A DNA stretch of 64,000 nt from Parabacteroides distasonis (lineage in GTDB: Bacteria > Bacteroidota > Bacteroidia > Bacteroidales > Tannerellaceae), in NCBI GenBank assembly GCA_015060925.1, contig SUXM01000004.1, forward strand, positions 62,001 to 126,000, in the 5' to 3' direction. Shown here one piece after another: positions 15,212-32,587 of this stretch (positions are counted from its first letter, which is position 1; each line of letters opens with the position of its first letter). The position numbers and the translations under genes were made by a program. The notes under the pieces are model-generated. The model did not search any database, was not told the DNA's origin, and saw only the letters and a list, made by a program, of their open reading frames with translations.

Positions 15212-16054
15212 TTAACTGTTCCGATATTCCAAAGGCCCCATGCCGACATGCCGCTTGAAGTATTTGCCAAAGAAAGACATATTGGTGAAGTTTAATGAAT
15301 AGGCTATGTCATGAATGCTTAGTTCGGTTGACTTCAGCTGTGCTTTGGCATCCATGATTACCATCGAAGAGATAATATCCGTACAAGTTTTACCCGAAAC
15401 CTGCTTGACGGTCGTACATAGATGAGCCTGTGTAATCCCTAACTTCTCTGCATAAAACGAGACATTGCGCTCCTGCATATAGTTTTGCATCACCAACTGC
15501 ATGAAATCTTTATGGATCTGTTCGCTTTTGGACAGGCTCTTAGGATGGGAGGCCTTGTCTTTATAAAGCGCTTTCACTCCCAATAATATACCTGATAGCA
15601 GATGGCTGATCATCGGTTTACCGATGTTTTCTTGGTATTGGTCATAGAGTTGGATCAATAAAGAAAGGTAATTCTCCATCATGGGAGCCATCTTTTCTGC
15701 AATAGAAATGACCGGGTTTTCTTGGATCATGTGGAGGATATTGGAGATAGGTTTGAGACTGTTGCTCTCCTCCACGAAGTGGGATGAAAACCCCAATACA
15801 TAAATCCGTAGGTCTTTGGATACTTTATGTATCTGTAAGATCGTACCCGGTAGGATTGTTACGAAATCATGCGGTTTGATATGGTAGCGTGTCAGATTAA
15901 TGGAACCTTCCGCTTCACCTTCCGCACAAAAGACAAAGATTTTGGCTTTCAGGCGGCAAGGGAAATTTGTATATAGGTTCAGTATGTCCGGACTGATATC
16001 CGTCCCAATGACCCAATCAACCGGGATATCAATTTTAGGTAGTTCGTTGTTCAT
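15212..16054 (-). CDS. AraC family transcriptional regulator (likely start MNNELPKID; ORF track extends to 16237)
   Basis: C-terminal HTH ISIAEKM...AYSLNFTNMSFFGKYFKRHVGMGPLEYR. Confidence 0.85.
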   Translation of the reverse strand: MNNELPKIDIPVDWVIGTDISPDILNLYTNFPCRLKAKIFVFCAEGEAEGSINLTRYHIKPHDFVTILPGTILQIHKVSKDLRIYVLGFSSHFVEESNSLKPISNILHMIQENPVISIAEKMAPMMENYLSLLIQLYDQYQENIGKPMISHLLSGILLGVKALYKDKASHPKSLSKSEQIHKDFMQLVMQNYMQERNVSFYAEKLGITQAHLCTTVKQVSGKTCTDIISSMVIMDAKAQLKSTELSIHDIAYSLNFTNMSFFGKYFKRHVGMGPLEYRNS

Positions 16055-16153
16055 AGTACGTTGTCTTATGCGAACAAAAATATAAAAAAGGATTTGTTTT
16101 ATTTGAAATATAACTATATTTGTTACTATTATTAAGTATAACCAATAATAACT

Positions 16154-16399
16154 ATGAAAATGAGTCCACGAGTTATGTTTATTAATGGATATGATTTTTT
16201 CTTTTATTCTATGGAAGAAGTGAGAAAACATATTCACATTGAAAAAGGTGAAAGTATAGCAAAAGTTTGGTTGGAACCAACAGTTGAATTAGTTTATAAC
16301 TACGGTTTTACCTCGAAAGAAATAAAGTTTATAATTCAAACGATTATTGAGAATGAACGAGTTATCTGTAAAAAATGGAATGACCATTTCGGTAAATGA
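16154..16399 (+). CDS. DUF4160-like small protein
   Basis: MSPRVMFINGYDFFFYSMEE pattern of DUF4160; overlaps the next ORF. Confidence 0.65.
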   Translation: MKMSPRVMFINGYDFFFYSMEEVRKHIHIEKGESIAKVWLEPTVELVYNYGFTSKEIKFIIQTIIENERVICKKWNDHFGK

Positions 16400-16631
16400 T
16401 AGAGTAGAAGTGACGTATATTTCCCGTAATGGTTTAGTATTGTGGATAAAGGATAAAGAGTATTATTTATCGTATGACAAATATCCATGGTTTAAGAAAG
16501 CGGCTGTAGATGATGTTTTTAATGTTCGTTTGTTGGGTAGGGAACGAATTCGTTGGGAGGCATTGGATGTTGATTTAAGTCTTTCAATGATTATATCTCC
16601 GGAAACATATCCATTGATAAGTCAAGGATAG
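16347..16631 (+). CDS. DUF2442-like small protein
   Basis: RNGLVLWIKDKEYYLSYDKYPWFKKA pattern of DUF2442. Confidence 0.65.
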   Translation: MRMNELSVKNGMTISVNDRVEVTYISRNGLVLWIKDKEYYLSYDKYPWFKKAAVDDVFNVRLLGRERIRWEALDVDLSLSMIISPETYPLISQG

Positions 16632-16674
16632 TCTTTGGTTATAGGAGGAGTCAACTACCTCCGATGTAAATGAA

Positions 16675-16718
16675 AATAGGTCGGATGTAATTCAAGATTA
16701 CATCCGACCTATTTTTTT
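16675..16718 (+). terminator. strong hairpin terminator
   Basis: AATAGGTCGGATGTAAT TCAAG ATTACATCCGACCTATT then T-run. Confidence 0.8.
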
Positions 16719-16962: not shown

Positions 16963-17808
16963 ATGAAGAATTTAAACCGATTATGTAAAGGTATGGTTAG
17001 CTTGCTGTTAGGCGGCTTCTTGATGACCTCTTGCCAGAGCGAGGATTTTAGCGGTTCTGTTCAGGCTGAGGAGAAAGGAACGATTATGTTGACGCTAAAC
17101 GCAATGGAGGGGTTTGAAACAGAAACAAAGGCTATTAGCGATATAGCATATGCTGAATATTTGGATGTTAATAATTATACTATAGAGATTTCTGATTTGA
17201 ATAACAGGGTGGAGACCTCCTTTAAGTATTCGGATCGAAGTGACAGACTTCCTTATGAGTTAAAAAGAGGTTCTTATACAGTAAAGGCTTATTATGGAGA
17301 GATATATAAGGATAGAGCTGCTTCTCAAGATGGTTTTTATGTGGTAGATGCTAAGAATATCAATGTGGATAGTAATCAAGAATATGTTTCTTTGACTTGT
17401 GTCCCTGTTCATGCCAGAGTAGAGACCCATTTTGACTCGGCCATGAGTTCCTATTATTCTGATTTTTATGTGACTTATAGCACAAATGCTTTGAGAGCCA
17501 AAGGTGAAACGGTTAAGTCTAATGATCATCCGTGGTATCTGTTGGTGGATGAAGATGGGGAAGAGGTAGAGGCTACGATCGTTTTGACTCCGAAAGAGGG
17601 GTATCAGACTGGTTCAACAGCTAAGTTGACTCAGAAATACAGATTAAAACCTAATCAGGCATGGACGTTGGGAATTGCTCCAAACTATTCTGCTACGGAA
17701 ACAGAAGGTTCTGTCAGCATTTCCATTACGATTGATGACCAGACTAATGATGTGGATGTGCCTATCATCATCCCTTCTGAATGGGGTACTGAAGCAGGGG
17801 AAGAGTAA
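16963..17808 (+). CDS. DUF4493-like surface lipoprotein
   Basis: Lipobox MTSCQSED; KGTIMLTL strand; ETKAIS. Confidence 0.7.
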   Translation: MKNLNRLCKGMVSLLLGGFLMTSCQSEDFSGSVQAEEKGTIMLTLNAMEGFETETKAISDIAYAEYLDVNNYTIEISDLNNRVETSFKYSDRSDRLPYELKRGSYTVKAYYGEIYKDRAASQDGFYVVDAKNINVDSNQEYVSLTCVPVHARVETHFDSAMSSYYSDFYVTYSTNALRAKGETVKSNDHPWYLLVDEDGEEVEATIVLTPKEGYQTGSTAKLTQKYRLKPNQAWTLGIAPNYSATETEGSVSISITIDDQTNDVDVPIIIPSEWGTEAGEE

Positions 17809-17826
17809 CAATTTATTTAATCGGAA

Positions 17827-19170
17827 GTGAATATGAAGATACATACTTATATAGCGTTAGGAGCATTTGCTTGGATAGGGTTGACCTCATGTGAAACAAG
17901 AGAGTCGCTTGTGGGTGGCGATGTTGCAATGAAAGAGGGATATGGTGCATTGGAATTGTTGGTGACTGCAAAGGAACCGGTGGAGACAAAGGCGGTCAGC
18001 ACGACTAAATTCCCTGTGATTATTGCAGAGAAAGATAGTGAAGAGGTTGTGGAAGAATATACAGTTGGAACTTTACCGGAAACAATACTTCTACCGGTAG
18101 GAGATTATACGGTAACTGCGCACTCTTCAGCTGAGTTGGAAAAAAGAATGGAAAGCCCTTATTATGAAGGAACATCAGATTTGGCGATTGTGAATGGAGT
18201 GACTAAGCAGACTACGGTGACCTGTACACAGAAAAACAGTCGTGTTCGTTTGGAATATGAAGACGACTTTTTGACTACCTTCAAAGAATGGTTGGTAACC
18301 ATTGATGATGGGTCGGAGTCGGTGTTGGTTTATACGCATGAAGATGGTCTTTCTCCACGTGATGTTTACTACCTATTTGATGATAAGGTGAAAAGTATTG
18401 TGGTTAACGTCTCTGCCAAAACAACTGCAGGTGAGACGGTTGCCGGAAACTATCGTTTTACAAAGGCGGATGCTCCGGAAGGGTATGAAGGTGATACAGA
18501 ATATTTCACCGGTGGGGATGCATTGGTTGTCAAATTGACAGCATTGTCTTTGGATGCCCCGACAACCGGAGAGGTGAACCAGATTGGGGTTACGGTGAAT
18601 GTTTCTTTTGCTAACAGTAATACTTCAGTGATTATACCGGTCGAAGATTTAGGCTCAACGGGAGATGAACCGGGTACAGGTGATGAAGATGACAATCCTT
18701 CGCAAGGGGGAGATGGTGCTGTGACGTTAACATTTCCTAAAGATATTACCATAGGTAGTTATGGGGCTGGAATTCCTAGTGAGACTGTTAATGTTAACAT
18801 TAAAACACCAAATGGGTTAGCTAAAATGAACGTTCGAATAAATGGAGGTAATGATGATTTTGATGATATTTTACATGAATTAAGAATGGATGGCCAATCT
18901 TTTAAAATGGATAGTTTAGGTTGTGATGTTGTGGATAATAAAGATTTCGATGCATTGTTGAAACAAGTTGATCCAACTTTGGCTGCCCCTTCTTATGGTG
19001 TAGATGAATATGATTTTCCTATTTCTTTTTTCTTTTCAATGTTGACAGTAACAGGGGCTACGGACGAAGGTAAAGCTCATGAGTTTTATATAGATGTTAC
19101 TGATAAGTTGGGTAATAAGGCTTCTGGAATTTATAAAGTGACTATTTACCAGGAAGAAGATGAAGAATGA
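17827..19170 (+). CDS. DUF4493-like lipoprotein with acidic Gly-rich linker and distinct C-terminal domain
   Basis: Lipobox LTSCETRES; linker GSTGDEPGTGDEDDNPSQGGDG. Confidence 0.7.
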   Translation: MNMKIHTYIALGAFAWIGLTSCETRESLVGGDVAMKEGYGALELLVTAKEPVETKAVSTTKFPVIIAEKDSEEVVEEYTVGTLPETILLPVGDYTVTAHSSAELEKRMESPYYEGTSDLAIVNGVTKQTTVTCTQKNSRVRLEYEDDFLTTFKEWLVTIDDGSESVLVYTHEDGLSPRDVYYLFDDKVKSIVVNVSAKTTAGETVAGNYRFTKADAPEGYEGDTEYFTGGDALVVKLTALSLDAPTTGEVNQIGVTVNVSFANSNTSVIIPVEDLGSTGDEPGTGDEDDNPSQGGDGAVTLTFPKDITIGSYGAGIPSETVNVNIKTPNGLAKMNVRINGGNDDFDDILHELRMDGQSFKMDSLGCDVVDNKDFDALLKQVDPTLAAPSYGVDEYDFPISFFFSMLTVTGATDEGKAHEFYIDVTDKLGNKASGIYKVTIYQEEDEE

Positions 19171-19189
19171 TAGTTGTATGATAATTTAC

Positions 19190-20986
19190 ATGAAAAAGAT
19201 ATATTCAATATTGTTTTTATTCTTTTGGGCTTTTATGATTGCTTGTACCCAAGAGGAAGAGATTGTTTCTGATGGTAATACCGGATACTTGCGTTTGGAT
19301 GTTTCAACGGAGGTTACTACAACGAAATCCGGTGATTTTGATCCGGAGAACTATAAGCCGAAGCAGTTCTATGTGGCTATCCATGATGCTGATGGAAAGG
19401 TTGTTAGATCGACAGAAGACTTTGAAAAGGAATGGGCTGGACAAAAGTTGAAGTTAGAAATGGGTATTTATACCATCAAGGTACATTCTAACGGATTTGA
19501 TGGCTCTGTTTCAGGAGAGGATCTTCCTTTTTATGCAGGAGAGACTACAGTGACGGTATCAAGAGGAAAAGAGGTAACGGCAAATATAAAATGTAAATTG
19601 GCGAATGTCAAGGTGACGGTTAATTTTGACTCCTCTTTTGGCAAGACATTCAAAGCGGCAGAGGTCAGTATCAGTTCGTTGTTGACCGGTGTTGAGGCGC
19701 AAGATTTCAAGATGGGAACAGCCAAAGGGGCAGTTTATTTTCCGGAAGGTGATATTGTGGCTTTGATTCGTGTGACCAACTTTGAGGATAATGTTTATAT
19801 CCAACGGGATACGATTGAAAACGTGAAAGCAAATGACCATTATATCTTTAATTACAAGGTGAAGTTGGTGGGAGAAGGCGATGTGCAGATTGAGGTGGAT
19901 GAGTCAGAGAGTGTTTATACCTTTACCTTTGAATTGGATCCGACACCTAAAACCACGTTGGAAGCAGACACACCTATCCCGGGTAATGTTTGGAGCAGCT
20001 TTGTTCATGTGACCGGTAAGATTAAGACGAAAGAAAGTGATAACCAGACATTTGATAACTCCTCTATGTATTTTGAATATCAAGAATATGGTGATGAGGA
20101 TTGGGAGAAAGTTCAAGCAACAAGTGTCGGAGGAGATGCTTATAAAGCCAAACTGACCGGTTTGAAGGCGGCTACCTCTTATAAACTTCGTTTGGCTTAT
20201 AGGGCAGGAAATGAGGAATATGTGAGTGGTGAAAGAAGTTTCACTACAGATATTGTAACCGTTTTACCAAATGGTGACATGGAAAATTGGACTCAAGATG
20301 GTAAAACAATTGATTTGGGAGGTGGAGTTTTTTGGGATTCAAGTAATCCGGGTACTACAACGGGTGCAGGAGCCATTGTTAATGTCAATCCCACTCAAGG
20401 AGTTTCTTCTCCTAAGCATGGAGGTAGTAAAGCTGCACAATTGAAATCTCAGTTTGCAAGCGCAGTTGGTATAGGTAAATTTGCTGCTGCAAGTTTATAT
20501 GCAGGTGCTTTTTATAAATTGGTTGGAACAAATGGAGCACGGCTTGATTGGGGACGTCCGTTTATTGCTCGTCCTACACAATTGAAAGGTTGGTATCAAT
20601 ATACCACTGGAAAAGTAGATTATGATGGTGACGGTCCTCTTTCTAAGAATGACAATGATTTATGGTCTGCTCAAGTGGTATTGGTGGATTTGGGTTCAGC
20701 TAATTATGTTCGAGTAGATAATACAGATATGTCTACTTTCCCGGATTGGAATACTGATTCACGTGTGATTGCGTATGGTAAATTGTCGGATGATTTTTGC
20801 AAACAGCAGAAGACAAATTGGACTCAATTTGTGATTGATTTGGATTATAAGAATTTGACAAAGAAACCAACACATATTATTATAGTGTTTTCATCCAGTA
20901 AGTATGGAGACTATTTTGAAGGTAGTACAAGTAGTTTGCTTTACTTGGATGATTTGGAGTTTGTCTATGGTGAACCTAATTTTTGA
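19190..20986 (+). CDS. DUF4493 - FN3-like - PCMD-like lipoprotein (likely start MKKIYS; ORF track start 19160)
   Basis: Lipobox MIACTQEEE; KLTGLKAATSYKLRLAYRAG; C-terminal VFSSSKYGDYFEG. Confidence 0.7.
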   Translation: MKKIYSILFLFFWAFMIACTQEEEIVSDGNTGYLRLDVSTEVTTTKSGDFDPENYKPKQFYVAIHDADGKVVRSTEDFEKEWAGQKLKLEMGIYTIKVHSNGFDGSVSGEDLPFYAGETTVTVSRGKEVTANIKCKLANVKVTVNFDSSFGKTFKAAEVSISSLLTGVEAQDFKMGTAKGAVYFPEGDIVALIRVTNFEDNVYIQRDTIENVKANDHYIFNYKVKLVGEGDVQIEVDESESVYTFTFELDPTPKTTLEADTPIPGNVWSSFVHVTGKIKTKESDNQTFDNSSMYFEYQEYGDEDWEKVQATSVGGDAYKAKLTGLKAATSYKLRLAYRAGNEEYVSGERSFTTDIVTVLPNGDMENWTQDGKTIDLGGGVFWDSSNPGTTTGAGAIVNVNPTQGVSSPKHGGSKAAQLKSQFASAVGIGKFAAASLYAGAFYKLVGTNGARLDWGRPFIARPTQLKGWYQYTTGKVDYDGDGPLSKNDNDLWSAQVVLVDLGSANYVRVDNTDMSTFPDWNTDSRVIAYGKLSDDFCKQQKTNWTQFVIDLDYKNLTKKPTHIIIVFSSSKYGDYFEGSTSSLLYLDDLEFVYGEPNF

Positions 20987-21006
20987 TTAAGTTTGAATAA
21001 TAACAG

Positions 21007-21756
21007 ATGAAAAATAAATTTTCTATCATACTACTATTTGTGATGTTGGGGGTTGTGTCAGTGGTGGCACAATCCTCTCGTCGAGTGGAACGTATTGATC
21101 GTGAGGTGCAAAAGGCTGTCTTTATTCCGAAAGGCTCTTGGATGGTCGGGGGATCGGTTTCCTATTCGGAACATGATGAAGGGAACCTTAACTTCTTAGT
21201 GTTGAAAGATGTGGAAGGGGAAGGCTATAACTTTAGTGTCAGCCCCTATTTCGGTTATTTCTTTCGGGATAACATTGCCATTGGTGGACGTTTTGCCTAC
21301 AAGCGTGACTATTTGGATTTAGGAAACTTTGATCTTAATTTGGGTGAGGACTTTAACATCAGCTTGAAGGATATCTACTATTTGGAACACAAGTATGAAG
21401 CCTCTATGTTCGTGCGTACCTATATGCCAATCGGACGCAGCAAGATCTTCGGTCTGTTTAATGAGGCTCGTTTAACCTACGGATATGGAACAGGGAAGAA
21501 CTCGACCGGTTCGGGTACTGAGTATGACGGTACTTATCAGACGGTACAGAACATGCAGATCGGGTTTGCTCCGGGGCTGACAGCTTTTATTACCAACTGG
21601 TCGGCGGTGGAGGTCTCTGTCGGTGTGATGGGGTTTGACTTTAAGTGGTTAGATCAGGAGACCAATCAGGTGGAGACGGGTAAGCAGCGTGTCTCTTCCG
21701 GTAACTTCAAGATCAACCTTTTCTCAATCAACATAGGTATGACCATTTATTTGTAA
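21007..21756 (+). CDS. outer-membrane beta-barrel protein
   Basis: Signal peptide, alternating strands, GGSVSYSEHDE..., short C-terminal strand MTIYL. Confidence 0.7.
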   Translation: MKNKFSIILLFVMLGVVSVVAQSSRRVERIDREVQKAVFIPKGSWMVGGSVSYSEHDEGNLNFLVLKDVEGEGYNFSVSPYFGYFFRDNIAIGGRFAYKRDYLDLGNFDLNLGEDFNISLKDIYYLEHKYEASMFVRTYMPIGRSKIFGLFNEARLTYGYGTGKNSTGSGTEYDGTYQTVQNMQIGFAPGLTAFITNWSAVEVSVGVMGFDFKWLDQETNQVETGKQRVSSGNFKINLFSINIGMTIYL

Positions 21757-21763
21757 TATACAG

Positions 21764-23416
21764 ATGATAAAGAGATTAAGTTATTATATCGGGTGTTTGT
21801 GGCTCATGGTAAGTTGTGCCATTGAGAATGATATACCCTACCCATTGATTGATGGTGCTATTGTGGCAATCGAGGTCGAAGGGCAGCGTGCCGGTACGGA
21901 CGGGCAGAGCATGGATGCCACGATCAATGCCAAAGACCGGACGATCAAGTTATTTGTAAACGACTCGGTAGATGTTTCCAAACTGAAGATTAAACGGTTG
22001 GAAATCACTGAGAATGCGAAGCTGACTCCCGATTCATCCGCTTGTGTGGATGTCGATCATTTCCCGACAGTCGGCTTTGCCTCTTTGAAAGAGCTATCTT
22101 CAACGGCTAATACCCGGGTGGATTTTTCCAAACCGGTGCTTTTTACGATCAGTACCTATCAGGACTATGTCTGGACGGTCTCAGTGGAACAGATTGTCAA
22201 TCGAGAGATAGATGTGGTGAACCAGATCGGGGATGCGGTGATTGATACCTATAGCCGTAAAGCAGTCATCTATGTGTCGACTGAACAGTCGTTGCGCAAG
22301 TTGCAGGTGAATAAGATGAATTTAGGAGGGGAATATGGACGAGTCGAACCGGATCCGACCCAGATAACCGACTATTCTTCTCCACGTGAGTTTTATGTCA
22401 AACATGCGTGGGAAGAGGTTATGACCAAATGGACGGTCTATGTCTATCATCAGGCAAGCAGCTCGGCTTCGGCTGAAGCTTTTGCAATGGTGACAAAAGC
22501 CACTTTGACCGGTAAGGTGCAGAGCGGTAAGACCCCGGTGGTGGAATATAAGGAGCAGAGCGGTTCGACCTGGAATACGTTGGCTGCTTCCGGTGTAACT
22601 ACCTCAGGTACATCATTTAAAGCGCAGTTGACCGGGTTGAAAGCGAGTACGACCTATCAATACCGTATCAGTGTGGATGGTGAAGCCGGCGAGGAACAAT
22701 CTTTTACAACTGCAGCAGCCATTCCGTTGGAGAATGGTAACTTCGATAGCTGGTGTACCAATGAAACCAATACGAAATTGTGGCAACCTTGGGCAGACGG
22801 GGCAAACTCTTTTTGGGATACCGGTAACCGGGGGGCGACAACGGTAGGGGATAGCAATTCCATACCGACAACTGAGACCTGCAACGGTTCAGGTAAGGCG
22901 GCCTCTTTGGAATCTAAATGGATTGTGTTGAAGTTTGCTGCGGGTAACATCTTTACCGGAACGTATAAGAAAACGGATGGAACGAATGGGGTCTTGGATT
23001 TCGGTCGCCCGTTCAACTCTTTCCCGACCAAATTGCGTGTGAACTATAAATATAACTGTGCGACAATCGATAAGGTGGGTGACGATGCGATGCAGCATCT
23101 GAAAGGTCGTCCCGATTCGTGCCAGATTTATATTGCATTGACCGATTGGGATCAGCCGTTGGAGATTCGTACACGTCCCTCTAATCGTCAGTTGTTCGAC
23201 CCGAACGACCCGAAAGTGATTGCTTACGGTACGTTGATCAAAGGGGAATCGGTCACCTCTTGGACACAGGCAGATATTGAATTGGAGTACCGATATACCA
23301 ACCGCACACCGAAATATCTCTTGATCGTGGCTTCGTCCAGCAAGTATGGTGATTATTTCACCGGAGGTGTGGGTAGCAAGTTGTGGTTAGACAATTGTGA
23401 ACTGATTTATGACTGA
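21764..23416 (+). CDS. PCMD-like lipoprotein with FN3-like domain
   Basis: Lipobox MVSCAIEND; AQLTGLKASTTYQYRIS; C-terminal VASSSKYGDYFTGGVGSKLWLDNCELIYD. Confidence 0.75.
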   Translation: MIKRLSYYIGCLWLMVSCAIENDIPYPLIDGAIVAIEVEGQRAGTDGQSMDATINAKDRTIKLFVNDSVDVSKLKIKRLEITENAKLTPDSSACVDVDHFPTVGFASLKELSSTANTRVDFSKPVLFTISTYQDYVWTVSVEQIVNREIDVVNQIGDAVIDTYSRKAVIYVSTEQSLRKLQVNKMNLGGEYGRVEPDPTQITDYSSPREFYVKHAWEEVMTKWTVYVYHQASSSASAEAFAMVTKATLTGKVQSGKTPVVEYKEQSGSTWNTLAASGVTTSGTSFKAQLTGLKASTTYQYRISVDGEAGEEQSFTTAAAIPLENGNFDSWCTNETNTKLWQPWADGANSFWDTGNRGATTVGDSNSIPTTETCNGSGKAASLESKWIVLKFAAGNIFTGTYKKTDGTNGVLDFGRPFNSFPTKLRVNYKYNCATIDKVGDDAMQHLKGRPDSCQIYIALTDWDQPLEIRTRPSNRQLFDPNDPKVIAYGTLIKGESVTSWTQADIELEYRYTNRTPKYLLIVASSSKYGDYFTGGVGSKLWLDNCELIYD

Positions 23417-23422
23417 TAAAGA

Positions 23423-25645
23423 ATGAGATATATCTCTCTATATATGACAGGGTTGTTGTTGGCTTTGTTCGGTACAGCATGTCTGCAAGAGACCTTGACG
23501 GAATCGACAAAGGGTAGTTTCCAAATCACCCTGTTAGACGATACTGAGGCTACGGATGTATGGACGAAAGCTTCGCCGTTGAAGCTCCCGGCGACCATCG
23601 CAGAGGAATTTCATCTGACCATCACCAAGGAATCCAACGGCTTTGTCTTGTATGACGGTGGTTATACGGATGAACCGATTCCGGCGGCAGCGGCTCTCTA
23701 TACGTTAGAGGCTACCTTCGGGGAAAACAATATTTTGGAGGTGAACAGCCCCTATTTCGTAGGAGAGAAGAATGGGGTTGAGGTTGTGGCTACTGAACCG
23801 ACTCTTGTCGAGTTGCCTTGCCGTTTGGCGAATGCGTTGACCTCTGTTCGTTTTGGGGAAGAGGATGTGAACCGTCCGAAGTTTGATGAACTGTATGCGC
23901 CGGGTTACGGGGTGAAGATTGCCATTGGACATTATTCAACGGTACTGACCGATAGCATGAAGGTGGCTTATTACAAGGCGGGGACGAACCCGGCAGAAGT
24001 GAGTTTCTCGTTTGTCGGTGTGATCAAAAGCAACGGGCAGGCAGTGGAATATCCGTTGACAACAGATGCCTTCCCGGTATTGGGACAGGCGGCATCTTAT
24101 AGAGCCGGTGCCCATATCCGTTTGGTGTTGGATATGGCTCCGATGGCGACCGGTCTGATCCCGACCATTGTCTCAGCAGAGGTGGTACAAGAAACCATCG
24201 AAGAGACCTTCCCGATGGAATGGTTGCCCAAGCCACAAGTAGAGGCAAGAGGGGATTTTGATTCTAACAATAAGATTCTCTTTTACGAGACCGAACAACC
24301 TACCGGAAGCATCAAGTTTAATTCGGCTTTGGGATTGCAGGAACTGAAGTTTACCATAGACTTTGACGACCCAACCTATAGTGCTTTGAATGGCGACTAT
24401 ACCCTAAGTACGATGACCGAGTCACAGAAGCAAGCCTTTGCAGAAGCCGGCATCATCCTGCCTCTCTTGGATAATACCGCAGAAAATGATAGTATTGGGG
24501 TGACCGAACTGATGAAGAAGCTAACTTATGCTTCGAATGACAGTAAAGAGGTCTCCAATGTGGTTCGTTTGACCGAGGTAAAGGCTAATAATAAGTATGT
24601 GGAGAACCTTGGTGGTTATACGCTATCCATCAAGCAAAAGCCGGAGTTTAAAGTGAATGTGCAAGATTATAATATCTGGTCTAAGGAATTTACGGCAGAT
24701 AAAGCAACTGTAACCTCTGATGATCCGGAGGCTGTTTATGCGGGTATTGTATATCAGTATAGTGAAGATGATCGGAACACTTGGAAAGTTTGTAATGATT
24801 GTAATGCGTCAAGTTTCCATTATAGACAGGCCTTTTCTGATCATCCGTCCAATCGATCGATATGGGTCAGAGCCATATTCAGGGGCTTTGAATCCAATAG
24901 GGTTATGATTGACATGGAAGAACCTAAACCTTTGCCAAATGGAAATATGGATGCATGGACGGCAAGCACTCGTCCTGTAAAAATTAGTGTTTTGGGAAGT
25001 ACGAAATATCAACCCATTTATTACCCATGGATAACTGGTTCTGTTGTGCAATGGTGGGATACCAATAATAATGAATCGATGCTTCAAGAGGTAACAACTG
25101 CTTATTTGGATTACAAATGTTTCCCGACGACTTCGTTTGAATCTCCCGGATATGGTGGAACGGGTAAAGCGGCTGTCATTCGTTCAGTATCGACAGCGAG
25201 TGCAAATTCTGAATGGTCAGGAGCTGGTAAAAAACGTGGTATTTTATATGTAGGAACGACCGATTATGATGGTAATCGGACAGAGGGGCAGTCGTGGGCT
25301 TCCCGACCGACCCATTTGGCTTTCCACTATAAATACGATAGTTATGATAATGAACGTTTTGGCGCTTATATAGAATTGTATAATGGTGGTACGTTGATTG
25401 CAAATGGACAATATCTGTCTGTTAATAATGTGTCTATACCTTCTTATTCCTATATGGAGGTTCCTTTGACCTATTCTAATACGAATTTGAAAGCGACTTC
25501 CATCAAGATCCGTTTCTATTCGGTGGCAGATGGGGATGAACCTGCAACGAGAAGATTAGATGTGACAATTCCGGCAGGGAATTATAAGATTTGGGGAGGT
25601 AGCGTCTTGACTATCGACGACATCCAATTAATCTATGACAAATAA
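23423..25645 (+). CDS. DUF4493-like lipoprotein with PCMD-like C-terminus
   Basis: Lipobox GTACLQET; PLPNGNMDAW...LTIDDIQLIYDK. Confidence 0.68.
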   Translation: MRYISLYMTGLLLALFGTACLQETLTESTKGSFQITLLDDTEATDVWTKASPLKLPATIAEEFHLTITKESNGFVLYDGGYTDEPIPAAAALYTLEATFGENNILEVNSPYFVGEKNGVEVVATEPTLVELPCRLANALTSVRFGEEDVNRPKFDELYAPGYGVKIAIGHYSTVLTDSMKVAYYKAGTNPAEVSFSFVGVIKSNGQAVEYPLTTDAFPVLGQAASYRAGAHIRLVLDMAPMATGLIPTIVSAEVVQETIEETFPMEWLPKPQVEARGDFDSNNKILFYETEQPTGSIKFNSALGLQELKFTIDFDDPTYSALNGDYTLSTMTESQKQAFAEAGIILPLLDNTAENDSIGVTELMKKLTYASNDSKEVSNVVRLTEVKANNKYVENLGGYTLSIKQKPEFKVNVQDYNIWSKEFTADKATVTSDDPEAVYAGIVYQYSEDDRNTWKVCNDCNASSFHYRQAFSDHPSNRSIWVRAIFRGFESNRVMIDMEEPKPLPNGNMDAWTASTRPVKISVLGSTKYQPIYYPWITGSVVQWWDTNNNESMLQEVTTAYLDYKCFPTTSFESPGYGGTGKAAVIRSVSTASANSEWSGAGKKRGILYVGTTDYDGNRTEGQSWASRPTHLAFHYKYDSYDNERFGAYIELYNGGTLIANGQYLSVNNVSIPSYSYMEVPLTYSNTNLKATSIKIRFYSVADGDEPATRRLDVTIPAGNYKIWGGSVLTIDDIQLIYDK

Positions 25646-25646
25646 G

Positions 25647-26336
25647 ATGAAAAGCTATATTTTATCCATATTATCTCTATGCTTGCTGTTGGTGGGATGC
25701 CAGCAGGAGCAGTTGATGGAGCAGCAGGGAACGGGCTATCTGTCGTTGGAGAGCCTGACTGTAATGGCTGTTGCCAACCAACCGGTCACACGTGCCGGTT
25801 TGGAAGAGGGATTGGGTTTCAAGGTATTGGATGCAAATAATCAAGAGATAATCAACTATGCTCCGAATGGAGATTATACCTCGCAGCTGTTTGAATTGGC
25901 TGCCGGTAACTATACGTTGGAGGCATACAACCAAGCCTATTTGGAGGGAACAAATTGGAGTAACAGCGAGTTGGGCGAACCGATTCGCTATATCAGACAT
26001 CCTTTTGCAATCGAAGCAAATAAAACCAACTACCTCAAGGTGGAGGTTCCCATGATTAACTTTGCTGTCTGCTTGGAGAGCGTAGAGGGAGAGGAGTTCT
26101 TCCAGAAGTTTGAATTGGTGGTCAGTATGGGTGACCGAGTGCTTGGGTTGAATAAAGGGGGAGTAGGTTATTTCCCTCCGGTGACAGGAGGTGAAACGCT
26201 CACTTATTCAATCTCTTATCTGAATGATGATGGTGACAGTGCAACAGGTAACGTACAGATGTTGACACCAACAGCCAATACCCAATATAATTTTATCTAT
26301 AACGTCGAAACGAACACCGTTCAAATAAATGAATAG
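25647..26336 (+). CDS. DUF4493-like lipoprotein
   Basis: Lipobox LLVGCQQEQ; TGYLSLESL...PVTRAG; ORF-track start 25635, likely MKSYIL. Confidence 0.65.
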   Translation: MKSYILSILSLCLLLVGCQQEQLMEQQGTGYLSLESLTVMAVANQPVTRAGLEEGLGFKVLDANNQEIINYAPNGDYTSQLFELAAGNYTLEAYNQAYLEGTNWSNSELGEPIRYIRHPFAIEANKTNYLKVEVPMINFAVCLESVEGEEFFQKFELVVSMGDRVLGLNKGGVGYFPPVTGGETLTYSISYLNDDGDSATGNVQMLTPTANTQYNFIYNVETNTVQINE

Positions 26337-26340
26337 GAAT

Positions 26341-28095
26341 ATGAAAACATTTACATATCAAATAGCCTATTTGTGGCTTAGCCTCATTCTTCTCCTCCCT
26401 GCCTGTGTGCAAGAGGAGTTACAACAGATTCCGAACGAAGGGGAAGGTATCTTGCGGTTGAGTAGTCCGACTGTGATTGCTACGCTCTCTTCTGATAAGG
26501 ATACGAAGGCGACTGCTTCGTTGCCGGATGGAATTGGTACGCCGGATGCATCTGCCTTTCAGATAGATATTTATAATGAAGCAGGTACTGAGCTTGTAAA
26601 AGGGGATGTTAATACCACTGAGGAATATGTGTTGGCTACAGGGAAATATAGGATAAAGGTGACACCTACGACTGCTTCTAACCCCGCATTGATCACGACT
26701 ACTGCCCCTGCCTATTTTGAGGGTAGTACGATTGTGGAGGTAAAACCGTTGCAAGTCAATACGGCGAGTGTGACGGTTTATTGGGGCTATTCGATTTTGA
26801 ATGTGTCTGTCACTGACGATTTGGCTTTCCATCTGAAAACCTGTTCGTTGGAGGTAAAGGTTGGAACAGAGACTCAAACGTATGCCATGAAAAGTGATAA
26901 GACTTTTGAAACACTATACCTGTTGGGTGGAAGAGATGCTATGGTGACCTTAAAGGGAACGAATTATATGAACGAGGCGGTCTCTGCTGTGTTGCTTCCA
27001 AACCAAGAGTTACCACGTGCCACCTCGTATGCAATAACAGCCAATCCGGATGATATCAAAAAATTTGACATTATCTCATCTGTGACAGCTGCCCATACCT
27101 ATAATAGCGGAACATTGACAGGAACCGATGTAACCTTGACTATCGCCAATGATATACCTAAAGAGTTGATTTCCAATTGGAGTGCGGAGTTACTATTTGA
27201 TGGAACTACGGTACGTACTTATAGCAGTAATCAATCATTAAATGGGGTAGGTTCTCCTGTAATGAATGTGACAACATTTCAATATATTCCGCAAAATGCA
27301 ACAGAGGGTTGGGATTGTGTGCTTCGTTACTCATATAAGATGAACGGGCAGACCTATAATGGTGAAAAGGCTGTCAAGTTAAAAGTACCTGCACCGGAGT
27401 TTACTGTGGCGGTATCTGCTTATACCTCCTATTCCAAGTATTTGGCGGGAGATATTTCCGGTGCAAACGGTTGTGATCCGGAAACCATCTATGATATGAA
27501 AGCGACTCCAACCATCTCAAGTGAAGTCTTAAATGCGAATGGTTCAACTTGTACTCTGACATTAGATGGTAATACTGTTTCAGCTGGTAATGCCACATCA
27601 CAATCATGGGCTGCCCATACACTTGCTGCCTCTTATACCTTTGATGGTGTAACCGTACAAGATAGCAAAACCTATCATATCACCGGGTTACCGTATAAAC
27701 CTAATAATATGATACAAGCAGATTGGGATTTCTCTTCTTGGAATTGTAAATATAATAGTGGCACAATTCAGCTTGGTGGAGTTAGTGGAAGTGGTGAATG
27801 TACTGCAACTTCTAAGATGGCTTTTAAGATTCCTGCTAATATAGGCGTTAGAGTTAATACAAATGTATCACTTGGATCTTTAAATTTTTTTGATTGGATT
27901 ACAACGAATTTTACTGTTTCGATAAATGGAACAGAAATAATAAAACAAAATAGTGGTAAAACTAATGAAAAGAACTATAATTTATCTGGAACAGGAACTT
28001 TTATTTCGAGTGCATCTCAAATAAAAATGAATAGTTCTTATACGGCTGCAGGTCCTTGGTCTAAAATTCATACATTACATATTTTATATAATTGA
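26341..28095 (+). CDS. DUF4493-like lipoprotein with AT-rich C-terminal domain
   Basis: Lipobox LPACVQEEL; EGILRLSSPTV...DTKATA; ORF-track start 26329. Confidence 0.65.
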   Translation: MKTFTYQIAYLWLSLILLLPACVQEELQQIPNEGEGILRLSSPTVIATLSSDKDTKATASLPDGIGTPDASAFQIDIYNEAGTELVKGDVNTTEEYVLATGKYRIKVTPTTASNPALITTTAPAYFEGSTIVEVKPLQVNTASVTVYWGYSILNVSVTDDLAFHLKTCSLEVKVGTETQTYAMKSDKTFETLYLLGGRDAMVTLKGTNYMNEAVSAVLLPNQELPRATSYAITANPDDIKKFDIISSVTAAHTYNSGTLTGTDVTLTIANDIPKELISNWSAELLFDGTTVRTYSSNQSLNGVGSPVMNVTTFQYIPQNATEGWDCVLRYSYKMNGQTYNGEKAVKLKVPAPEFTVAVSAYTSYSKYLAGDISGANGCDPETIYDMKATPTISSEVLNANGSTCTLTLDGNTVSAGNATSQSWAAHTLAASYTFDGVTVQDSKTYHITGLPYKPNNMIQADWDFSSWNCKYNSGTIQLGGVSGSGECTATSKMAFKIPANIGVRVNTNVSLGSLNFFDWITTNFTVSINGTEIIKQNSGKTNEKNYNLSGTGTFISSASQIKMNSSYTAAGPWSKIHTLHILYN

Positions 28096-28132
28096 ATAAA
28101 CGATAATAACAACAAAAATAAAAAATACGACA

Positions 28133-28987
28133 ATGAAGAAAACATTATTAATTGGCTTGGCAGCCGTAGCATTAGGTAGCATGACAGCATGCTCCAATAT
28201 CTTAGAAGAAGAAGGAGTGATCTCTGCCAAAACAGGTAAATTAATTATAGGTTTAGAGACAGACGAAGCTGTCAATATTGTAACAAAAGCTGATAATAAA
28301 GAAACAGTTACTTTTACTGATGCACAAAAACAGGAAATTAAAATTACCGGAACAGCCGGTGATGATGTGGTGAAACCTGGAGATTTTACAGTTCCTACTA
28401 CAGTAGGAACACATACTGTTCCCAAAGGAACTTATTATTTTTCTGCAACAAATGGAACTATGAGTAGTGATTTTGAGTGGGATAAACCTTATTTTTTAGG
28501 AAATTGTACTACTACAGTTAATGCTAATGGTGTTGCCGCTGAAGCAAAGATTGTTTGTGATTTAACCAATTCAATGATTACTATCGTTAAAGAGTCTTTT
28601 GATAATTTGGCTTCAAAAGGAATAACTGTTACAGATTTGTTTGTAGTGAATCAAAGTGGTAATATAGGAAAGGATACACAGATTACAGCGGATAAACAGA
28701 CTTTTTATAATAGCTCAACACAGACAAGTTTAAAAAGTGATGATTTATATGCAAAGGCTGATTTAACAGATGTAAAAGTCGTAATTGATGGCCATTTAAC
28801 AGATGAATCTTCTAAAGTTTTTAGAGGGGTAGCAGCGATTAAAAACGGTACTAATATTGGAACAGATAATAAGTATAAGGTAACTTTTAATCTGGATGAG
28901 TCACAAGGTTCTTTAAAACTTTCTTTAGAAGTAAATGGTGAAGTAACACCAATTGATATTGAAGTACCTGTAAATCCATATCAATAA
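28133..28987 (+). CDS. DUF4493-like lipoprotein, tandem paralogue 1
   Basis: MKKTLLIGLAAVALGSMTACSNILEEEG; near-identical leader to the next gene. Confidence 0.7.
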   Translation: MKKTLLIGLAAVALGSMTACSNILEEEGVISAKTGKLIIGLETDEAVNIVTKADNKETVTFTDAQKQEIKITGTAGDDVVKPGDFTVPTTVGTHTVPKGTYYFSATNGTMSSDFEWDKPYFLGNCTTTVNANGVAAEAKIVCDLTNSMITIVKESFDNLASKGITVTDLFVVNQSGNIGKDTQITADKQTFYNSSTQTSLKSDDLYAKADLTDVKVVIDGHLTDESSKVFRGVAAIKNGTNIGTDNKYKVTFNLDESQGSLKLSLEVNGEVTPIDIEVPVNPYQ

Positions 28988-29021
28988 TTAACTGAATAAT
29001 AATAAAATAAAAGATACGACA

Positions 29022-29855
29022 ATGAAGAAAACATTATTAATTGGCTTGGCAGCCGTAGCATTAGGTAGCATGACTGCATGCTCCAATATTTTAGAAGAAG
29101 AAGGAATCGTTTCCCCTTCAGCTAAAACAGGTACATTGACTATTGCTTTAGAAACAGATGGTAGTCTTGATGTTGCAACAAAATCAGAATCTTCACAGGT
29201 TACTTTAACCGAAGAACAAATGAAGGTCTTTATTGTTAAAGTAAATGAAAAAACATTAACTAATTCCTCATATAATGATAACAAATTGACATATTCGGAA
29301 AATTTAGCTGTTGGCTCTTACGGTGTTTCTGCTACATATGGTAACATGAATGCTAATTTTGGTTGGAATTCTCCTATTTTTGAAGGAAAAACAACTGTAA
29401 ATATAGAAACATTAAAGCAAACAATTTGTAACTTGACCGCAAAGTTGGATAATTCACAAATAACAGTGGATCAAACAAGTTTTAATGCTTTTTTGACCAA
29501 AGCAAATGTTACTTCTTTATATGTTTATGCAGGAGAAAACAAACCAACTGATGAATCTGGAATATATAATTTAATAACATCTCAAAATGTTTTAGAAACT
29601 AAAACACTTTATGTAAAAAGAGGACTATCGAATGTGTATATTGTTATAAAAGGTTCTCTAAAAGATGACTCAAAGACATTTGAACTATCGAAATCGATTT
29701 CAAATGAGACAGAAGCAGCTAAAAACTATAATGTAAAATATAGTATAAAAGGAGATAAAGGTTCATTATCTCTTGTCATTAGTATAGATGGAGATATAAC
29801 AGAAGTTCCTATTGATGCAGAAGTTGATCCATATACTCCAGCAACTAACTCATAA
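29022..29855 (+). CDS. DUF4493-like lipoprotein, tandem paralogue 2
   Basis: Leader near-identical to 28133 gene; mature part divergent. Confidence 0.7.
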   Translation: MKKTLLIGLAAVALGSMTACSNILEEEGIVSPSAKTGTLTIALETDGSLDVATKSESSQVTLTEEQMKVFIVKVNEKTLTNSSYNDNKLTYSENLAVGSYGVSATYGNMNANFGWNSPIFEGKTTVNIETLKQTICNLTAKLDNSQITVDQTSFNAFLTKANVTSLYVYAGENKPTDESGIYNLITSQNVLETKTLYVKRGLSNVYIVIKGSLKDDSKTFELSKSISNETEAAKNYNVKYSIKGDKGSLSLVISIDGDITEVPIDAEVDPYTPATNS

Positions 29856-30466: not shown

Positions 30467-30760
30467 ATGCGGTTGAAGGAAGAATATATAACGTTGTTAC
30501 GGAGTTATTTTCATAATAAGGCGATATCATATGGAGTAATCCGCATGGCTTTGTTTGGTTCTGTTGCTCGTGGAGAGCAGACCGAATTAAGTGATGTTGA
30601 TGTGGCATACGAAGGGAAAGCTGATATATTGCTTCGTAGTCGGATGAAACAGGAACTGGAGGTTTTATTTGGTTGTAAAGTGGATATTGTCCGTCTTCGT
30701 GAACAAATGGAAGATTCTTTGTTTCAGCAAAGAATATCAAAAGATTTAATCTATGTTTGA
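30467..30760 (+). CDS. MNT-type nucleotidyltransferase (antitoxin-like)
   Basis: GS-X10-DXD motif GSVARGEQTELSDVD. Confidence 0.85.
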   Translation: MRLKEEYITLLRSYFHNKAISYGVIRMALFGSVARGEQTELSDVDVAYEGKADILLRSRMKQELEVLFGCKVDIVRLREQMEDSLFQQRISKDLIYV

Positions 30761-31121
30761 TAAAGAACGTATCGGAGAATTACTGAATCGTATAGAGGAG
30801 GCTGTTGGGTTAATTCAAAGTAAATCAGGTTTGATTACAAGACCGGATGACTTTTTATTAACACAAGATGGTATGTTTTTGTTAAGTGGTATTTGTATGC
30901 AGTTGATCTTTATTGGGGAATCGGTAAAGGTTATAGATGATAAGGCGGGTTCTGCATATTTAAAACAATATCCTGATATTCCATGGAAAGAGATTATGGG
31001 GTTAAGGGATATTATTGCTCATGAATATCATCGCATAGATGAAGAAGAGATTTTTAATGTTATTCAAAATAATCTTGTTCCATTGTTGAAAACAGTCCAA
31101 CGAATGAAACAGGAACTTTGA
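30753..31121 (+). CDS. HepT-like HEPN protein (toxin-like)
   Basis: RX4H motif RDIIAHEY; overlaps MNT gene by 8 nt. Confidence 0.85.
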   Translation: MFDKERIGELLNRIEEAVGLIQSKSGLITRPDDFLLTQDGMFLLSGICMQLIFIGESVKVIDDKAGSAYLKQYPDIPWKEIMGLRDIIAHEYHRIDEEEIFNVIQNNLVPLLKTVQRMKQEL

Positions 31122-31126
31122 TAATA

Positions 31127-32587
31127 AAAAACAAACACTATAAGTATATGAAAAATAGGTTTTTGTTAGTGATATGGATCGCATTTATGGCGATAACAGG
31201 TGCGTGGGCACAGGTGGATGAGGAAGAGGCTCCGATGGGGGAATCGTTTTTGTTCTCTTTCATGACAGGTGAAGCGGATATCCAGGCATCTTATGGCAAT
31301 AATGCAATTGAGATCGAACGCCTGAACCAAAAGGTGTGGCCGGCGATCACCCCTTTGATGGATGGGGAATATCATCTTTTGATCGTGGGACATATTTATA
31401 GTGAGACGGGAGCTGTCTCCAAGACGGCTATCAATACGGCTTCATGGCGTGCGAATACGGTACGCCGTTACTTGAAGAACAAATATGGATTGGAGAACCG
31501 CCATATCTCTTTCTACGTGGATCGTAGTGGGGAGTGGGGGAATAATGTGCATGTTTATCTGCTTTATTACCCGATGCCTGAGTTTGCCAACCGCCAGATC
31601 TTGTTCTCTACCGACCAGACGTTGGAGGCGATTTCCGCAACCTTGAAGCGATACCCGAAACCTCCTTATATTTATGTGGTGAATGACCCGGAGCTTTGCG
31701 AGGATGGTGAACCGTTTGCTTATGTGGTGAACAACAATAAAGCCGATCTGCCGTATGCCGCCGGAGCGATGCGCCCGGTAGTGGCTCCGCAAGAGAGGGA
31801 GGAGGTGGAAGAGGTGGTTGTCCGCAAGCAACCGAAGCAGACAACGGTACAACCCCAACCGAAGAAACAATCTCAAACTGTGGTGGCAGCTGCCCCGGTC
31901 GTAGTGGCAGAGCCTACAGAGCAAAGACAACAGGTACAGCCTCAGCCACAGCCGGTTTATCAGCAACAGGCTTATGAGGTGGCACGCCCGAAACGGGATT
32001 ATCCGACTTATCGTCCGTTCAACTTGATTGTCAAGACAAACTTAGTACCTTGGGCGACTGTCTCTCCCGGTATAGCGATCGGTACGGATGGGGCAAAGGT
32101 CAAGACCGGTTCGTTTATGCCTAACTTGGAGTTGGAATATGCGTTTGCCGGATGGGGATCTGTTGCAGTAGGAGGAACCTATTCGAAGTTTAGCTATGGT
32201 GATAATCCGGATAACTTGTGGGGGGTATCGGCAGTCTCTTTGGAACCCCGTTTGTGGTTTAACGATGATGGTACCTACCGAGGTTTCAATGTTGGTTTGC
32301 GTATGCAGTACGGGAACTTCAATGTACGTGATAATGAACCCTATATCGGGCATGGCGAGACGGGTAACTTCGTAGGGGTAAGTGCTATGTTGAATGTCGT
32401 ACAACCTATCTACCGGAATTTTGCCTTTGAGGCAGGTGTCGGTTTCGGTACACGTATTGTCTATGATGGTTATACTTATCAGCGAGATTATGATTTGGGT
32501 GTGAGTGAGAAGGTAGAAAAGTTCTCATTGACAGAGTTTATGATCAACTTTAGATTCTCCTTATTGTATCGTTTCGGTTTCCATTGA
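31127..32587 (+). CDS. OmpA-like / DUF3575-like outer-membrane protein with Pro/Gln-rich linker (likely start MKNRFLL; ORF-track start 31118)
   Basis: Signal peptide; OmpA-like N-terminal half; linker VQPQPKKQ...QPQPQPVYQQQ; C-terminal barrel KTNLVPWATVSPG. Confidence 0.65.
   Translation, partial: KNKHYKYMKNRFLLVIWIAFMAITGAWAQVDEEEAPMGESFLFSFMTGEADIQASYGNNAIEIERLNQKVWPAITPLMDGEYHLLIVGHIYSETGAVSKTAINTASWRANTVRRYLKNKYGLENRHISFYVDRSGEWGNNVHVYLLYYPMPEFANRQILFSTDQTLEAISATLKRYPKPPYIYVVNDPELCEDGEPFAYVVNNNKADLPYAAGAMRPVVAPQEREEVEEVVVRKQPKQTTVQPQPKKQSQTVVAAAPVVVAEPTEQRQQVQPQPQPVYQQQAYEVARPKRDYPTYRPFNLIVKTNLVPWATVSPGIAIGTDGAKVKTGSFMPNLELEYAFAGWGSVAVGGTYSKFSYGDNPDNLWGVSAVSLEPRLWFNDDGTYRGFNVGLRMQYGNFNVRDNEPYIGHGETGNFVGVSAMLNVVQPIYRNFAFEAGVGFGTRIVYDGYTYQRDYDLGVSEKVEKFSLTEFMINFRFSLLYRFGFH

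Follow-up and report, generated by a model that had tools for sequence, protein, structure and literature searches.

We examined a 64,000-nucleotide stretch of a Parabacteroides distasonis contig (the window, whose coordinates are used throughout). The source genome measures 2.54 Mb, is 88% complete and has its best relatives in Parabacteroides. Between positions 16963 and 29855 lie ten open reading frames, all on the forward strand, with gaps of 6–37 bp or overlaps of 8–11 bp between them, in agreement with the preliminary description of ten same-strand genes. Its count of nine lipoproteins and one beta-barrel also holds: a lipobox cysteine, mostly followed by acidic residues, is found by motif in all nine non-barrel proteins (9/9), and the remaining gene is modelled as a barrel. 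Divergent from the operon is a gene for an AraC-family protein, its probable regulator (15212..16237, reverse strand; Pfam HTH_18, 8e-17), whose orthologue (cluster c2) is upstream and divergent at the loci of many relatives. A small DUF2442 open reading frame and then a 20-bp terminator-like hairpin occupy the DNA between the two (16353-16716). The sole perfect inverted repeat upstream of the operon (16673-16715, 5-nt loop) was considered as an invertible promoter and rejected, being terminator-like and placed behind the DUF2442 frame. Rfam gives no match between 14.8 and 31.2 kb.

The first gene of the operon (16963..17808) encodes a DUF4493 lipoprotein of 281 amino acids (Pfam, 3e-32), a stalk-like pilin by our reading, with its lipobox cysteine at Cys24, the strand GTIML, the sequence TK56A and a C-terminal hairpin, GSVSISITIDDQTNDVDVPIIIP. 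Lys56, encoded at 17128..17130 on the forward strand, is one of eight candidate cleavage sites. The second gene, also for a DUF4493 lipoprotein (17827..19170; 447 amino acids; Pfam, 4e-40; site TK55A), has an extra C-terminal region, and the third (19160..20986; 608 amino acids; site TK56S) is tip-like, joining a DUF4493 domain (Pfam, 1e-39) through an Ig-like linker to a PCMD jelly-roll. After these come a dedicated eight-stranded outer-membrane barrel (21007..21756; 249 amino acids) and a PCMD lipoprotein with no pilin domain and no Lys/Arg site (21764..23416; 550 amino acids), which has the motif CxxNDIPYP behind the lipid cysteine. The remaining genes are again DUF4493 lipoproteins: a tip-like protein with a weak C-terminal PCMD (23423..25645; 740 amino acids; site TK49A; Pfam, 1.8e-19); a short protein (25635..26336; 233 amino acids; site TR53A; Pfam, 1.3e-10); a protein with an extra C-terminal domain (26329..28095; 588 amino acids; site TK60A; Pfam, 7e-13); and two stalk-like proteins (28133..28987; 284 amino acids; site TK52A; and 29022..29855; 277 amino acids; site TK54S; Pfam, 3e-21). 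Gene 28133 is a tandem duplicate of 29022. In this pair the promoter-proximal DNA, signal peptide and lipobox are nearly identical while the bodies diverge, a conserved leader on a variable body. Just beyond the operon, a small open reading frame resembling an MNT-type nucleotidyltransferase (30467, by motif) is followed by a HepT-like protein (30753; together 30467-31121), and several relatives (L067-L069, for example) have this pair close to the cassette.

A DUF4493-like family with a TG-x-L-x-L strand after the lipidated cysteine had been proposed for eight of the lipoproteins, all except 21764. The family assignment is borne out: DUF4493 is identified in seven of the eight by Pfam (E-values 1e-10 to 4e-40), and in 28133, which has no Pfam DUF4493 match, by profile comparison (hhalign 97.7%, E=2.5e-12). 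All seven Pfam DUF4493 matches of the source genome lie inside the operon. The strand is likewise present in all eight genes named, but its real form is G-x-[LIVF]-x-[LIVM]; a literal TG is present only in 19160, 25635, 28133 and 29022.

One DUF4493 subunit, 16963, was modelled with AF2 from 65 sequences (mean pLDDT 82.6). The model shows a strand at residues 38-47, a low-confidence loop across the Lys/Arg site, a core mostly above 90 and, at the C-terminus, a pair of strands (249-258 and 262-266) that are again of low confidence. In a Foldseek comparison with the PDB, about 28 of the 30 best matches are type V pilins or fimbrial adhesins, including 4h40 (2.2e-7), 3gf8 (DUF1812), 3pay, 3r4r, the FimA1 prepilin 6jzk (1.1e-5), Mfa2 (5nfi) and Mfa4 (5dhm); the earlier proposal of a fibre would have been contradicted by an unrelated fold. 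Against the pilins the TM-scores reach only a modest 0.24-0.45 (by query length), so the match supports membership of the superfamily, not a close relation to type V pilins. By sequence, DUF4493 shows a borderline match to a canonical pilin (hhalign 66%), and nothing convincing is found in the PDB, the best relevant match being the adhesion protein 4gpv (E=0.013). By this single model the DUF4493 domain is a pilin-like beta-sandwich with a first strand, a Lys/Arg loop and a C-terminal strand pair, a fold that we extend to the other seven subunits through their membership of the family. The strand pair, of low confidence in the model, is conserved in first-gene relatives, which mostly end in a hairpin of the form G-x-L-x-I-x-ITIDE-TND--DIEVP. 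A donor-like hairpin is present inside the multi-domain subunits too, and it may therefore be intramolecular there.

The preliminary description also placed a small outer-membrane barrel in the middle of the cluster, as the AF2 model of 21007 (pLDDT 79.7) confirms: it is an eight-stranded barrel that Foldseek assigns to the OmpA/OprG/OmpW class. Neither Pfam nor NCBIfam has a family for the protein, and a search of the PDB by sequence returns nothing convincing. PHROGs gives no match for 21007, 21764, 26329 or 28133. No other cassette member is as well conserved as the barrel, whose mean identity across 51 complete loci is 57%. A DUF3575 protein with an OmpA-like part is encoded just downstream of the operon (31118-32587), and some Parabacteroides have a homologue of it in the vicinity of the cassette (L051, L052, L057); kinship between 21007 and this neighbour was considered and ruled out (hhalign 0.1%). 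As for the PCMD domain, which had been proposed for three genes, Pfam finds it strongly in 19160 (2.6e-42) and 21764 (2.7e-47), and by sequence both match the solved structures 3hbz, 3s30, 4het and 4jrl; in 23423 it is only weak (24.7 bits, then 28.4 bits in a genome-wide search with a cut-off of 28 bits). Three of the four PCMD matches of the source genome are inside the operon. The first PCMD structure to be solved, BT2081 (3hbz), is a jelly-roll with a conserved putative sugar pocket (PMC2954218).

Type V prepilins are surface lipoproteins that a clostripain-type or Rgp protease cuts near the N-terminus, which opens a groove for a neighbour's strand (PMC7616799, PMC11316588); the assembly mechanism and the ligand-binding domain at the tip are reviewed in PMC12632263. 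At the place where these prepilins are cut, all eight DUF4493 proteins of the operon (8/8) have T-[K/R]-[A/S], about 27-35 residues past the lipid cysteine and behind the first strand, and we predict from sequence that they are cleaved there. The motif is missing from the 21764 protein, which fits an uncut anchor. Among relatives the strict motif occurs in 313 of 426 DUF4493 lipoproteins, compared with 131 of 2914 control segments (4.5%) and 3 of 74 orthologues of 21764, and a looser motif in 390 of 408 relatives versus a fraction of 0.34 in controls; these counts pool two locus sets with some genomes in common and so are not independent. A separate type V-like locus of the source genome (contig C23, L152), with DUF3868, a Fimbrillin_C protein, an Mfa2 anchor and a QTKA lipoprotein, serves as an internal control: QTRS and QTKA stand at the same position in two apparent pilins, and the Mfa2 anchor is without such a motif. 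A candidate processing protease is the one C11 clostripain-family lipoprotein of the genome, on contig C26. Rgp, the protease that processes FimA, is Arg-specific, whereas seven of the eight predicted sites are Lys and only one (25635) is Arg, a point that counts against processing in the type V manner.

Are these genes found together in other genomes? Among 100 relatives, the barrel is present in 41 genomes, DUF4493 in 43 and both in 40, leaving three with DUF4493 only (in G015 and G020 the contig ends beside the DUF4493 genes; G066 has a single lone gene) and one with the barrel only. A sample of 295 Bacteroidales genomes contains 31 with a strong match to the barrel (E up to 1e-20), 38 with DUF4493 and 27 with both, where chance would give about 4 (hand tally). 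DUF4493 without a strong barrel occurs in 11 of the 295, mostly as one gene of about 400-460 amino acids; lone proteins of this length, with neither barrel nor cassette, are seen at L042 as well as in genomes lacking a strong barrel.

We fetched 80 loci from Parabacteroides, Bacteroides, Phocaeicola, Mediterranea, Odoribacter and Prevotellaceae by way of the barrel, so that its own presence is by construction and that of its neighbours is not. The recurring order is DUF4493 (about 260 amino acids), DUF4493 (about 440), DUF4493-PCMD (about 600), barrel, PCMD lipoprotein (about 560), DUF4493 (600-750) and DUF4493 (about 250), with DUF4493 genes flanking the barrel on either side; 51 loci have all seven slots in order, and in these the outer DUF4493 slots are the least conserved (28-30% identity). 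The DUF4493-PCMD gene is immediately upstream of the barrel in 66 of 67 loci, and the 21764-type lipoprotein immediately downstream in 69 of 72. From the first DUF4493 gene to the PCMD lipoprotein, Parabacteroides, Bacteroides, Phocaeicola and Prevotellaceae share one fixed order; the genes travel as a block and are not scattered, as independent proteins might have been. Some Parabacteroides carry a variant that opens with an additional DUF4493 protein of about 860-900 amino acids and closes with a large protein of 1300-1900 amino acids. The latter (cluster c6) has long internal repeats and lies directly or closely downstream (L034, L036-L039, L043, L044, L066-L069). Two tandem barrel genes replace the single one at L032, L070 and in several Bacteroidales outside the genus. 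We took the long antisense frames opposite orthologues of 21764 (cluster c20) to be spurious.

The operon shares several traits with the type V pili of Porphyromonas gingivalis (FimA-E, Mfa1-5) and the FimA/Mfa-like pili of Bacteroides: lipoprotein prepilins, a pilin-like sandwich fold, a Lys/Arg site behind the first strand, and several paralogous subunits of which some are C-terminally extended. It differs in having DUF4493 instead of the FimA/Mfa families, no Mfa2/FimB anchor, a fixed dedicated barrel, a non-pilin PCMD lipoprotein, and PCMD in place of the known tip domains. To our knowledge, the fim and mfa subunit sets of P. gingivalis include no barrel. Within the source genome, the C23 locus is similar in its apparent cleavage motif and motif-free anchor, but it consists of other families with other accessory genes, and the stretch read there has no DUF4493 gene or 21007-type barrel. 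No Mfa2 match falls in the operon; those of the genome are only on contigs C23 and C40. Contig C24 (L151) encodes a pair of Mfa_like_1 proteins that are almost the same over their N-terminal halves but unrelated in their C-terminal parts, where one of them has leucine-rich-type repeats by eye. The jelly-rolls of 19160 and 21764 resemble BT2081, 3s30, 4het and 4jrl; unlike BT2081 and its paralogues, which belong to polysaccharide-utilisation loci and have no pilin domain, PCMD sits here in a pilin operon. The barrel belongs by fold to the OmpA/OmpW class, but differs from it in lacking a sequence family and any detectable kinship to the adjacent DUF3575 barrel.

We propose, with a probability of about two in three, that the operon encodes a multi-adhesin surface fibre built in the manner of type V pili, by protease-gated strand exchange. 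The preliminary description had already read the cluster as a multi-subunit surface fibre or adhesin, which is supported by the pilin-like fold, the fixed gene order and a conserved site of tryptic type where type V prepilins are cut; it had missed the divergent AraC regulator, the conserved Lys/Arg site and the fixed synteny. The subunits would reach the cell surface as lipoproteins, by export and flipping; there a clostripain-like protease would cut T-[K/R]-[A/S] and remove the lipid and first strand, and a neighbouring subunit would then insert its C-terminal strands into the groove. The polymerisation, the cleavage and the anchoring are all presumed. The stalk might consist of 16963, 28133 and 29022, which end at donor strands or the hairpin, and 17827, 19160, 23423 and 26329, with extra C-terminal domains, might be tip or side adhesins whose PCMD jelly-rolls would bind glycans as adhesive heads; the short 25635 is placed in neither group. 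The 21764 protein, having neither pilin domain nor cut site, would stay lipid-anchored and is a candidate for a permanent base together with the barrel. With no Mfa2-type anchor encoded in the operon, fibre attachment might fall to the invariant pair of barrel and 21764, as the natural candidates. The AraC protein probably controls the whole. At least four tip-like subunits for three stalk-like ones would be unusual for a fibre, which counts against this model, as do the modest TM-scores, the lack of an Mfa2/FimB-type anchor, the donor-like hairpin within multi-domain subunits and the presence of a barrel that the P. gingivalis sets do not have.

The same lipoproteins could instead act independently, as a non-polymerising array for glycan capture in which PCMD and other binding domains sit on pilin-like spacers and the barrel is a channel or partner. 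PCMD proteins do occur elsewhere in polysaccharide-utilisation loci and have a site like a sugar pocket (PMC2954218), and several subunits here have C-terminal domains. However, none of the hallmarks of such a locus (a SusC/SusD pair, glycoside hydrolases or other glycan enzymes) is found among the genes scanned between 15.2 and 40.8 kb, and an array would leave unexplained both the fixed gene order and the conservation of the Lys/Arg site in the DUF4493 subunits and not in 21764. We consider it unlikely. The site itself could serve for shedding, a protease freeing monomeric DUF4493 adhesins with no fibre being made, much as many lipoproteins of Bacteroides are set free by clostripain at the surface (PMC12632263), and its position within an exposed low-confidence loop of the 16963 model would suit this. 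Yet a shedding site need not directly trail a conserved first strand or be paired with the conserved C-terminal hairpin of the stalk-like members, and the fold matches pilins that assemble by strand exchange, so that we regard shedding as quite improbable.

The barrel brings to mind a surface layer or vesicle coat, given that other Bacteroides surface-protein operons contain barrels: in B. thetaiotaomicron, BT1926 stands for a family of barrels and BT1927 is a phase-variable S-layer lipoprotein. But 21007 has no NCBIfam family, the subunits are pilin-like and no invertible promoter is seen upstream of the operon, and such a system is very improbable here. A relation of the operon to the vesicle locus IVp-II of B. 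fragilis (PMC4747536) was not established, and no groES/EL genes were recognised in the stretch read around the B. fragilis copy (L139). It is tempting to hypothesize, more tentatively than the fibre itself, that the operon belongs to a distinct, widely distributed branch of type V-like pili, one whose usual lipidated anchor pilin is replaced by a dedicated small outer-membrane barrel and a non-pilin PCMD lipoprotein and whose fibre has several glycan-binding heads.

This operon type, common in gut Bacteroidales, appears to be undescribed in the open-licence literature that we searched: we found no paper on DUF4493 there, and for PCMD only the BT2081 structure was relevant. As the search covered open-licence papers only, a description elsewhere is possible. 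A survey of P. distasonis surface structures covered Fim and Mfa genes only (PMC9409006). The present analysis adds the pilin-fold match, the conserved Lys/Arg site and the fixed synteny of the DUF4493/PCMD/barrel cassette, which spans Bacteroidaceae, Tannerellaceae and Prevotellaceae of human and animal guts. If the fibre reading is right, it would provide a function and an assembly mechanism for DUF4493 and for a barrel family that has no name, and two questions would become directly testable: how a type V-like fibre that lacks an Mfa2-type anchor is attached to the cell, and what glycans are bound by the PCMD heads.
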